Source: Hydra vulgaris (Eukaryota; Cnidaria; Hydrozoa; Anthoathecata; Hydridae). Taken from it: a stretch of 64,000 nucleotides of DNA. This document shows positions 28,529 through 33,487 of this stretch, piece by piece. Under the pieces are notes generated by a model. That model did no database searches. It saw only the letters and a program-made list of their open reading frames with translations, and had not been told where the DNA came from. The position numbers and the translations under genes are program-made. Position 1 is the stretch's first letter; each line of letters opens with the position of its first letter. The DNA lies in the NCBI RefSeq assembly GCF_038396675.1, contig NC_088930.1:39754001-39818000 (forward strand), given 5' to 3'.

Positions 28529-29403
28529 CACGGTGGTTTAGAAATGGACATTTATTATGCGCATGCGTTATACTCTGCTCAAATGTTGGTAAACAGTTAT
28601 GTCCGCAAGTAAACAAAGAATTACTAATAAAGTTGCTAAACTTCAAATTAGATTTATTTGTAGATATTTCTAAATAGTCTATAAGAAATGATATCAAAAC
28701 AATACTTTAGGTATGGTATGTGTCATCAAAGCTATCATTTAAATAATTTTACCAAGAGAATAGAAGTGGGACTAATGTGAAACTAAGCTGTTTTTTAGGC
28801 GAAGTTTAACTTGTGCTTACATTGTAGTCTATATTCTAAAGTTTTAAATTTTTTAGTGGCTACCTTGATTTTTTTTTTTTAATATAAAAGTTTGTGAATT
28901 GTTTAAAGCAAAAATCAAAAACCGGTTACTTTTTTTTGTGATAATATAATGCTTTTAAAGATAGGTAAGTTTTCTTTTTATTTGAAAGGTTAAAAATACT
29001 GACAGAAATATTATATAGGCTTTAATACTGCCATTTATTTTCTTTAAATCATTTTGCAGTATTTTATCGTATTATTTTTAGTATCTATAATTTTTCTTTT
29101 TCTTGGCTGAGCTTTTTTTTGATATTTTTTTACAGTTGGGTTGTTTTTTATGAAATGCTTGTTCATTATGCTTTTTAATCTACGCACTCCTTTCATATGG
29201 CAGTAGGTACTCTTCATGCGGTTGATTTCAGCATGAAGACTTTCTCCACCTTGCTCTCCATAAGTACCTAGTCCTACTCCCCATTTTCTAATGAAAGGTA
29301 ATGCATGGTACTCCAGCAAATGAAGCTTGGGTGTGATTGAAGGGTTTGGCCAGTTTTCACGGAAGTACTTCATGAAATCTTTGATTCGATTTTCTGTAAC
29401 CAA

Positions 29404-29591
29404 TAATATGTGTATATATATATATATATATATATATATATATATATATATATATATATATATATATATATATATATATATATATATATATATATATATA
29501 TATATATATATATATATATATATATATATATATATATATATATATATATATATATATATATATATATATATATATATATATATATATATAT
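29404..29591. repeat. (TA)n array, about 180 bp
   Basis: TA repeat interrupting the last coding part of the RAG1-like gene. Confidence 0.97.
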
Positions 29592-29760
29592 AAGAGTCCT
29601 ACTCTTCCTGATGATCAAGTAATGGTGAAACTTTTTGTTTAAGAAAAAAGTTAGATAAGTGTTTTTTACTAATTTATTGCTCTGTTCTTTAAGAACATTG
29701 AGCACTCTATTTGTAAAATACACTAACATTATTTACACACACATACACACACACACATAC
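29592..29760 (+). mobile_element. Penelope 3' end / pseudo-LTR fragment
   Basis: It matches, in opposite orientation, the 3' end of the Penelope element at 15633-15778 (CTTCCTGATGAT, GTTAGATAAGTGTTTTTTAC, TTCTTTAAGAACATTGAGCA, TTTGTAAAATACACTAAC). It is flanked on both sides by TA arrays. The hammerhead-like core is present but weaker: CTGATGA...TGGTGAAAC is retained, while stem III and the cleavage triplet are degraded (AAA). Confidence 0.82.
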
Positions 29761-29849
29761 ACATATATATATATATATATATATATATATATATATATAT
29801 ATATATATATATATATATATATATATATATATATATATATATATATATA
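29761..29849. repeat. (CA)n/(TA)n array
   Basis: CACACACATACACA grading into TA repeats. Confidence 0.96.
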
Positions 29850-32094
29850 ACACAATGATTTAAAAAAACAAAGATAAAGATCAATTAACAAAAATAATTT
29901 TCTCTATTTATTGTGTTCTGTCAAATTATAACATATGACATACCAAGGTCCTGTTTGTTATCTTCATTAAACTGATTGCAGGAGTTATTAAGCTTGTGAC
30001 ATATTCCAAATTTAGAGAAGAGTACCTTAAAGTTTTTACAAACTTTAATTTAAGTTTCTCTGTGTATATCAGTGTCGTTGAACCCAAGTTTGACTACAAG
30101 GTTTGGTATAGAGTTGCAAAGTTCAAGGATACTTTTCTCCTAATTTCTCCTAATTTTCTCCTAATTTTCAAGGATACTTTGATTACTAACGAAAACTTTT
30201 CCCGTGATATGCTTGTCTTTGTACTCCTAATGAGTTAAGTACCTTATCAAGTTTGTTTACAAGTGGCCCAAATGATTTCTTTATATGGTCTGCTTCAAGC
30301 AGTATTTTTAGTTCTGAGATCTATGATTAAATATGTTCTTGAGATAAATTCAAAAAAATATAACCAATGAAACAAAACTTAGATATTCCAATGTATAAGA
30401 TTCTCAACTGTATTATTCTGGGTTTAATTACCAATCTAAATTAAATATTTTTAGTAAATAATAAAAATAAAAGTTGTTACCTGTTCTTTCTTTTTCTTTT
30501 CAAAGTGAATCAGGTAATGTTCAAATACTAATTTAATTTTTTCTTCATTTTCAGGGTTAAAAATTATTTGCATTTCAAGTGCTTCTGTTATAACACGTGT
30601 TTTATCTTCAAGTGCTTGAATACTTATTTGAAGTTGATTTATTTGGCGCTGGTGCTCTATATATGCATTAAATTCCTCACAGTCAAGTGTTTGGTTGGTT
30701 ACTGCCATTCGACCTGCAATTTTTATGTCAATTGTGTGATAAGAAACTTCTAACATGTTGAAAAACTTTAAGTATATACCAAGTGAGATATGTAAAGCAG
30801 GAACTCCTATCTAATAGTGCAAGAAAGTTTATATTATTATTTACAATTGCATACACCACCATTTACGTTTACCCCACCAATAACTTGTATTGTATTCTAT
30901 TGAATAAACGATTATGTGAATTTGCAAAGAATGCCTAATAAAAAAATCAAAATAATGTAAATAATAAATAAAAGCAAGGCACCTGATCAAGTGGCACATT
31001 GAACAACGGTTGGTCAATAACATTGTCACATAACTTGGCAAACTTGGGATCTGCACCATGGTTGTTAAATTTTGCTAGAGACAAATCTAGTGTCTTTAGT
31101 GATTGCATTTCAATGTTATCGTTAATTGGATTTGACAGTCCTTGACTTGTTATGTTGCAAAACAGGCATGAGTGTCTACCTAAAGTAATTGAACAAGTTT
31201 GTGTTAAGAAAGCAAAATAAATCATGTTGCATGTATCTGGCCCAGATGAGTTTTTTTAAAGAAACCTGTATTAAATATATGTACTTACCATTTGCACCAG
31301 TTATTTCATAAATTGCACACAAGAATTCATAATCACCGAATACAAATACACGAATCTGTTTTTCTATAAAATTGAACAGAATTAAATTATTATACATTTC
31401 TTTAAAAAGAAACTGTAATCTATCATAATCCTGACAATTGTGGTAAGAAACCAATAGTTGATGATTTTGTTTATGTCAAATATTGGTTGGATGTTTTTGA
31501 ATTTCAGTGTGCTTGGATAATTGAATTATTTTGTTGTTTGTAATCTTGTTGTATAATAAGAGGTTGTTGCTAAAATTATTACAAGAAAATTGATTTCTGT
31601 TTTTATAGTATTGCATTTAATTAATTGTAGTATGTTAAAGTATTTTTTTAAAAAGATTTGTTTGTACCTATCTAGTCTATCTAGTACATTTGTTATATGT
31701 CCTTGTAGATTTTCGATATGAAATATATTGAAATATTTGATTTGAATATACGATATTGAAATATTTGATTTGCTCAGAATATTTTCTTTTTCATTTTCAT
31801 TAAAAGATTTCAAAAGAGTACCAGTTTGCTTGATTGTAGAACTGGTGCTTTCTCCACATGTTTTGCTCATATTATGTTTTAGATGTAATTGTCGTCTGCG
31901 AATTGTGCGTAAACATACATCTGAGTTTTCTTTTTAGGCTCTTGGTGTTGATGTGAAGCATTAGGGTTAAAATGTTGTGTAATTTATTTAAAATATTCAA
32001 AAAATCATACTATAGTTTCCTATTATAAAATTAAAAGCATTTTTGTTTTGTTATAGTAATTTTACAGTCTCTTTTTTTGTAAAGATAGTCTTAC

Positions 32095-33027
32095 CCTTGG
32101 TCCACCTGTCGGAAATTCAATTATATTGGATTTTGTTTGAGATATTTTTTGTTTTATTACATGCAGAGCAGCATCTTCAATATTTCTTGGTATAACACTT
32201 GTTGAATCCAATGCAAATATATCTGAAATTTTTTTTTTGTGAAGTTGATGACGATGATATTGATAATGTTGTTGAACTTGATATCGGAGTTGTCTGACAA
32301 GTTTTTTGATGTTTCTTTCGTTCTGACAGTTGTTTGACTTTAAACAATCTACCACAACCTTGCTTGCATACTTCTTGCAAATTTTCTATCATTTCAATGA
32401 CATTGGTTGATGAAATTAACCCATCACTTGGAATTGAAAAGGAACATTTAGGGCATTTCGTTTTTGATATTAGTTTTCCAATGATAAGTGGTAATAGACA
32501 TGGTGCACAGAATGAAGACAGTTTTTTTATAATAATTGGTTTATGCATAATTTTGTTGCAAATAGTACACACACAAAGATGCACATGAGGGTTTAAAGTG
32601 AAGTTAATATCTTGCAGTTTAAGATTAAATTTTGTTTGAGGTAAAAGTTTAGATTGCATGTTATTTATTTTGTGTCTAGTCCAAATATTTTCACTATAAC
32701 TAATACTTAAAGGTCTTCCACTTATCTTTTTCTTTTTTTTTCTTCCTTTGCTGGCTTTAAAGCAAACACATTCAGTAACATTGCAATTATCAGGCCAAGA
32801 TTGTAATTTTTGTTCAGTGTTTGAACCTTTTTCAATATTTCTTAATATTGAAAAGCATCTATAACACATTTTTTGAGGATGCTTATTTGGGTGGTCCTTA
32901 TCGATTCGGATAAAAAACAAAATTCTATTCTAACAATATGTTTTGTTAAAAGAACACCATCATTATCTAGACTTTCTCCACATATTTTGCATAATGTTTT
33001 TAGTTTTGTTTCATGTGACTCAGTCAT
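32095..33027 (-). pseudogene. First exon of the RAG1-like gene: zinc/RING region
   Basis: ATG at 33027 (MTESHETKLKTLCKICGE). A one-base shift in the run TTTTGTTTTTTATCC (about 32905-32920) separates KHIVRIEF from FIRIDKDHPNKHPQK. The exon then stays open to KNFRYICIG, shifts again near 32210, and continues IFALDSTSVIPRNIEDAALH, FPTGGPR up to the donor GTAAGA. In the RING block the usual C-x-H pair of the third and fourth ligands is replaced (IIKKLSSFC), so zinc site geometry may be altered or decayed. Confidence 0.72.
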
Positions 33028-33487
33028 TTTTACGTGTTTTTTTATTGCTAAAATGTAAGATTTAATGTACAAAATTTTTAAACTTAAAAAAGTAACCGGA
33101 ATTCGATTTTTTTTTTATTATAAAGTTAAACCCATCTTTTTTTTTAATATATATAGCTTTATAGCATAAAAATTCTAATAAATGCTTAATTATTATGTTT
33201 TAGTAGTTAGGATGACCATAAAATAATTTTCAACTTTCCTGCGTATTTTATCACATAAAAATTAATAAATTAAGTATTTCAAATAAAATATGTTTTCCTT
33301 GGCCACACGTTTTATCAGTTTATAGTTTATATCTGATTTATACATCTTTAAAGCAATGATATGACCTTTTTTATTACGTTACGGTAAGAGACAATTACAA
33401 AAAAAATCAAAATTACGATGTTGTTGTTTTTAAAGTAACGCATGCGCATAATAAATGTCCGCAAATGCTTAAAATTAAACCACCGTG

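Follow-up and report, generated by a model that had tools for sequence, protein, structure and literature searches.

A probable Chapaev transposon of Hydra vulgaris with a RAG1-like N-terminal module and unequally spaced ends

We analyzed a 64,000-nucleotide stretch of the Hydra vulgaris genome (contig NC_088930.1, positions 39,754,001 to 39,818,000; hereafter the window) and find that a 4,959 bp element within it is very probably a defective Chapaev-group transposon of the cut-and-paste DNA class, in the CACTA-Mirage-Chapaev-Transib (CMCT) clade, whose transposase combines a RAG1-type zinc module, usually a RING and a further finger, and a DDE core of RAG1/Transib fold. This assignment is carried by the element ends, 4 bp target-site duplications, many genomic copies, domain homology, and a core fold predicted for one relative. 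A sequence-only reading of the window had proposed that the element would inform the origin of the RAG1 N-terminus. Its observation is confirmed; its interpretation is partly supported and largely in print. The idea of a new insight into that origin is not supported, because Kapitonov and Koonin placed Chapa and RING domains in Chapaev in 2015 (PMC4411706), and the core is not foreign to RAG1. Profiles and the predicted fold support a history in which RAG1-fold transposases of non-vertebrate animals carried the RAG1 N-terminal module with them, and the part worth following is a rigid one-turn asymmetry between the two ends.

Insertion, genomic copies and Chapaev hallmarks

The window copy is bounded by perfect 12 bp inverted ends and a CAGA duplication and interrupts the endonuclease region of a long interspersed nuclear element (LINE). 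Joining the flanks with a single CAGA regains a 167-amino-acid frame across the junction, bearing out the size, ends, duplication and in-frame LINE split described in the sequence-only reading. When one mismatch was allowed, the end sequence GCGCATGCGTTA was found at two places in the 64 kb, both of them element ends, against an expectation of 0.06. Across the genome (911.5 Mb in 15 contigs) the end 12-mer alone gave 91 matches compared with 90 for the reversed pattern and is no rarer than this control; the evidence is carried by end pairing, the inner block and spacing (61 matches compared with 0, described below). We fetched 17 convergent end pairs, which with the window copy make a set of 18 elements of 2.6 to 9.5 kb that all share the same two ends, including CAC...GTG termini in 18/18, the feature by which copies were selected. 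The duplication was then read at many insertion sites, as the sequence-only reading had proposed: a perfect 4 bp duplication flanks 16 of the 18 copies, and a 5 bp duplication was found in 0 of 18. One of these 18, L039 on contig C9, is the same insertion, its flanks matching those of the window copy over at least 1.45 kb on each side; we count it and the window copy as one event because the flanks are shared, which leaves perfect duplications in 15 of 17 independent insertions (P about 1e-34). The regional duplication bearing this insertion aligns window positions 26789-35250 with contig C9 64339800-64348200, and the compared flanks are 97.6-99.2% identical.

We place the element in Chapaev and not Transib because of its ends, its duplication length (4 bp, compared with 5 bp in Transib) and its domain order. 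Reported Chapaev hallmarks are CAC...GTG ends and duplications of 3-4 bp (PMC4079192), a range that includes the 4 bp observed here, and the window element fits these hallmarks and published CMCT motifs (PMC12730594). Chapaev is further described as carrying a Chapa domain, with two subgroups adding a RING as in RAG1, in a study whose tree includes Hydra magnipapillata (PMC4411706). The Hydra element shares with these transposons the order of zinc (Chapa) module, RING and core, as well as CAC...GTG ends and a duplication of the same length class. During transposition, the transposase would cut at CAC, pair one long end (20 bp spacer) with one short end (10 bp spacer) by reading the terminal heptamer and the inner block, and insert with a 4 bp stagger.

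Spacing of the two ends

The two ends of the element differ in the distance between heptamer and inner block (Table 1). By eye and allowing small changes, the 25 bp block GGACATTTATTATGCGCATGCGTTA follows a 20 bp spacer at the 5′ end and a 10 bp spacer at the 3′ end in 18/18 copies; they lengthen to 22 and 12 bp when ACATTTATT is taken as the inner limit. Genome-wide, CACGGTGGTTTA followed by GCGCATGCG within 8-36 bp gave 61 matches, compared with 0 for the reversed pattern, in a count that ends with an altered 12-mer or altered GCGCATGCG escape. The distance from CACGGTG to GCGCATGCG is 33 bp in 32 matches, 23 bp in 26, and 32, 28 and 20 bp in one each; the 5′ and 3′ labels of these matches derive partly from spacer length, and the distance distribution is independent of them. 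The 61 matches span two families, of which the older has other spacer letters. The 20 and 10 bp spacers recur in front of GGAACTTTATT in one copy (ends L088 and L079) of another relative, which has CACGGCA ends and 58% identity in the last core exon. This third family is represented by the one complete L079/L088 pair and two more 5′ ends, L086 (heptamer changed to CGCGGCA) and L087, whose flanks match one another. In L080-L083, relatives at 50-55% identity, the fetched stretches yielded no ends.

The two ends differ by one fixed helical turn (10 bp), a possibly new feature that resembles the 12/23 pairing of RAG signals. Reported spacers are 12/23 in the recombination signal sequence (RSS) and 27/31 in ProtoRAG (PMC8289069). 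End asymmetry goes unmentioned in the excerpts of PMC4411706, whose families were compared by description and not letter by letter, and a literature search that excluded Repbase and most subscription papers found no paper that brings Chapaev together with a recombination signal and asymmetry, which is weak evidence of novelty. The sequence-only reading had instead emphasized an RSS-like heptamer. The CACGGTG ends are real, yet taken alone they are weak evidence because CAC...GTG or CA..TG ends are general for the superfamily (PMC4079192, PMC12730594); the fixed 10 bp asymmetry, absent from that reading, is the better candidate parallel with the RSS.

For the origin of the asymmetry, a historical accident has a substantial chance, somewhat short of even: an old indel would have been inherited by all copies and would have no role in pairing. 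Since the families share one ancestor, a single old indel would show everywhere, and a pairing role is itself putative; against this account, spacing stays rigid despite changed spacer letters (33 or 23 bp in 58/61 matches across two families), and 20/10 is retained in the 58% identical copy with its different heptamer. We regard it as a bolder and rather unlikely proposal that the one-turn difference is a working 12/23-type rule, in which a transposase with the whole RAG1 layout, made up of a zinc/RING module, a putative DNA-binding region after GGPR and a RAG1-fold core, would require one 10-spacer and one 20-spacer end. If such a rule did operate in Chapaev, asymmetric paired signals would predate the separation of the Chapaev and Transib/RAG lineages and the later arrival of RAG2. 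The fixed asymmetry offers a concrete way to ask whether the 12/23 rule arose in transposons before the RAG1-RAG2 transposon existed.

RAG1-type N-terminal module and transposase core

Single-sequence searches with the first exon place RING matches on top and return weak RAG1 matches; by themselves they would not have shown RAG1 homology, which becomes clear once relatives are included. A six-sequence profile searched against the PDB ranks full-length RAG1 first (residues 141-378, E 5.2e-19), about 8 orders of magnitude ahead of the best other RING protein listed (E 1.2e-10), in a match that reaches upstream of the RING. With a full-length profile of 15 sequences the match spans RAG1 101-383 (E 1.6e-31). 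The Pfam family PF12560 (RAG1 importin binding), our stand-in for the Chapa domain, scores above cut-off in proteins P0004, P0006, P0007, P0017, P0019, P0027, P0029 and P0031, and also in P0010. A Chapa-type domain, followed in two subgroups by a RING, is the Chapaev arrangement, and one relative is named 'V(D)J recombination-activating protein 1-like' by NCBI. These results support homology between exon 1 and the RAG1 N-terminal zinc/RING region as predicted in the sequence-only reading, with a significant profile match beyond that of a generic RING, and other copies and relatives also carry the zinc exon that it had considered might be captured only here. By analogy with RAG1, the RING and zinc module would dimerise and perhaps ubiquitinate.

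A joined protein of 985 amino acids contains D494, D565, C584/C587, H894/H899 and E916, the DDE arrangement with C(2)C and H(3-4)H motifs that characterizes Chapaev, and alignment A3 largely retains this set of D, D, C(2)C, H(4)H and E. We take the RAG1 counterparts to be D600, D708, C727/C730 and H937/H942. DUF1280 falls within the core (P0005, E 1.3e-16). The predicted core of relative P0017 has a RAG1/Transib fold with structural matches including RAG1 and HzTransib, at 12-15% identity in the RAG1 alignments, and we conclude from this one relative that the core is probably of RAG1/Transib type; the earlier view that the RAG1-N module is attached to a distinct core is not supported.

Module and core also occur together outside the window. 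In full-length relatives a single transposase of about 885-1,014 amino acids unites a zinc module, usually a RING and finger, and a DDE core, and both parts are present in proteins from Hydra (by alignment) and the crinoid Antedon mediterranea, among others, including P0029, whose name has the style of records from the sponge Sycon. The relatives found in Holothuria and Ptychodera have the core without the module. We compared 150 listed matches, of 151 core matches found in the Hydra genome (1904 candidates, 150 scored) with 128 of 154 N-module matches, those left out being mostly second fragments of one locus. For 72 of these 150 core matches, an N-module on the same strand precedes the last core exon by no more than 9 kb; for none of them is it downstream or on the opposite strand. 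Among the matches listed, where far relatives are under-detected, the association is 24/25 at core identity of at least 80%, 21/34 at 60-79%, 17/39 at 50-59% and 10/52 below 50%.

These features could also describe a divergent Transib/RAGL transposon directly related to the RAG1-RAG2 ancestor, since the element shares with RAG1 and RAGL (TransibSU, ProtoRAG) a homologous N-terminal zinc and RING region, a predicted core fold like that of RAG1 and HzTransib, and heptamer-like, CAC-initial, asymmetric ends. We consider this improbable, and reject a Transib assignment, on the 4 bp duplications. Transib is reported to have 5 bp duplications and no N-terminal module (PMC8355894, PMC7204232), and Chapaev with Chapa and RING is already described (PMC4411706). 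The Hydra element further differs from RAG1 and RAGL in its very divergent core and a spacer difference of exactly 10 bp. The 10 window frames scanned against Pfam gave no kelch match and no RAG2-like gene, with no dedicated search made in intact copies. That the RAG1 likeness is a generic RING with zinc fingers of other origin, or an exon captured at this site alone, is scarcely credible and is contradicted at the profile level, where RAG1 ranks first in a match extending upstream of the RING; PF12560 exceeds its cut-off in the first eight proteins listed above, and the module lies upstream of the core in 72 of 150 listed matches and is fused to it in distant relatives elsewhere.

Several observations weigh against a Chapaev transposon with a RAG1-type module and core. 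Placement in Chapaev follows published hallmarks and not a tree. A perfect duplication is absent in 2 of the 18 copies and in the checked CACGGCA-ended copy. PF12560 reaches 17.2 bits in the Hydra exon and 21.6 bits in P0002, below the cut-off of 23.3, and is not matched in P0005 in the Pfam scan; RAG1 N-module homology rests on relatives and profiles. Pfam scores the RING weakly in P0019 and P0027 and returns none in P0031. No RAG1 core sequence match appears among the best 60 of 201 profile matches, in which the single full-length RAG1 stretch reported spans the N-module only. The P0017 model is of moderate quality (predicted local distance difference test 75.3, predicted template modeling score 0.54), and this protein, 44% identical in the core, stands in for the window copy. 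An N-module is not listed near 78 of the 150 listed core matches, mainly the more distant ones.

Further observations concern these domains and transcripts. The 356-amino-acid protein P0010 combines a RAG1-N-type module (PF12560, E 3.3e-7), a RING and a RAWUL domain (E 1.3e-18) in a Polycomb-RING-like layout, and the RAG1 N-terminus may have a cellular relative in it. Residues 10-64 of exon 1 in copy L036 show a weak zf-AD (ZAD) match (E 0.0013, below cut-off), and ZAD may be a relative of the RAG1 N-terminal zinc module. A profile of the region after GGPR, which is placed like the RAG1 nonamer-binding domain (NBD), gave 0 matches of any kind in the PDB up to E 10; by structural offset GGPR lies about where RAG1 GGRPR, at about residue 389, would fall. 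In two divergent relatives a histone-type 3′ stem-loop (Rfam RF00032, gathering threshold 34) sits just past the final transposase exon, at L080 446-491 and L081 1047-1092 (34.4 bits) and at L082 373-417 and L083 372-416 (33.4 bits), and transposon mRNA ends may be linked to S phase through it.

Gene layout, damage and neighboring features

The cysteine and histidine blocks of the window copy are present in the order given in the sequence-only reading. The gene is broken, with exon 1 frameshifted near 32,930 and 32,230 and a RING that reads KLSSFC where intact copies read NCLHSFC. Three stretches of the 5.5 kb copy L035, about 300, 225 and 220 bp long, are lacking from the window copy; with the second went the segment GGDYGGDSFK and its first catalytic aspartate. 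In the DDE-like core noted in that reading, FVFGDYEFL contains the second aspartate and not the first. Judged from these letters, the window copy is dead and cannot make active transposase because of the frameshifts, the loss of part of the RING and the loss of the first catalytic aspartate.

Table 1. Features of the element and its insertion site in the window
Feature	Position	Strand	Evidence or remark
Chapaev-type DNA transposon, defective copy	28529..33487	-	Minus-strand transcription; ends, duplications, copy comparison
Target-site duplication CAGA (4 bp), left	28525..28528		
Target-site duplication CAGA (4 bp), right	33488..33491		
Interrupted LINE endonuclease frame, downstream part	28310..28524	-	Flank joining
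Interrupted LINE endonuclease frame, upstream part	33492..33776	-	PF03372 E 2.3e-4, below cut-off
Element 3′ end	28529..28570	+	CACGGTG (28529-28535), 10 bp spacer (28536-28545), inner block GGACATTTATTATGCGCATGCGTTA (28546-28570)
Element 5′ end	33436..33487	-	CACGGTG (33487-33481), 20 bp spacer (33480-33461), inner block GGACATTTATTATGCGCATGCGTTA (33460-33436)
Exon 1: RAG1-N (Chapa) zinc module, RING, C..C/H..C finger	32095..33027	-	Terminates TGGPR; two frameshifts
Chapa / RAG1_imp_bd-type zinc module (LCKICG, HPQKMCYRC, CVC)	32747..33027	-	PF12560 E 0.004 on first piece, below cut-off; above cut-off in relatives; profile
RING, broken	32444..32569	-	C-L-H lost, KLSSFC compared with NCLHSFC
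Second finger after RING (CKQGCG ... HQKTC)	32297..32368	-	As in RAG1 zinc dimerisation domain
Post-GGPR region	31757..31921	-	Placed like RAG1 NBD; putative counterpart by position
Deletion point, approximate	31528..31544	-	Lost stretch about L035 element 2263-2472, with first catalytic D (GGDYGGDSFK)
Exon with second catalytic D (FVFGDYEFL)	31287..31361	-	
Exon with C(2)C motif (CLFC)	30983..31180	-	
Exon PALHISLGI...	30481..30810	-	
Last exon: H(4)H (KLHLLEYH) and catalytic E (GEQGGE)	29047..29397	-	

The longer copies are mostly about 5.5-5.7 kb, and the first exon is a single open frame in 5/18 copies (L031, L032, L033, L036 and L046). Six of the 18 are deletion derivatives of 2.6-3.0 kb in which exon 1 is mostly retained along with the final portion of the core, none of them (0/6) with the N-module in a single open frame. 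Five of these six (L038, L040, L044, L045 and L047) share one common internal deletion that removed most of the core and kept both ends and most of the RAG1-N-like exon. The short copies resemble Aplysia N-RAG-TP, as described in PMC8355894, in being mobile RAG1-N-like sequence, and differ in being deletion derivatives of a full transposon.

Elsewhere in the window, a reverse transcriptase frame at 26691-27647 on the minus strand (PF00078, E 9.8e-32) probably belongs to the interrupted LINE, and a plus-strand frame at 35657-36853 contains DUF4371 (PF14291, E 4.4e-23), a domain whose home we take to be hAT transposons, so that this frame is presumably hAT-like.

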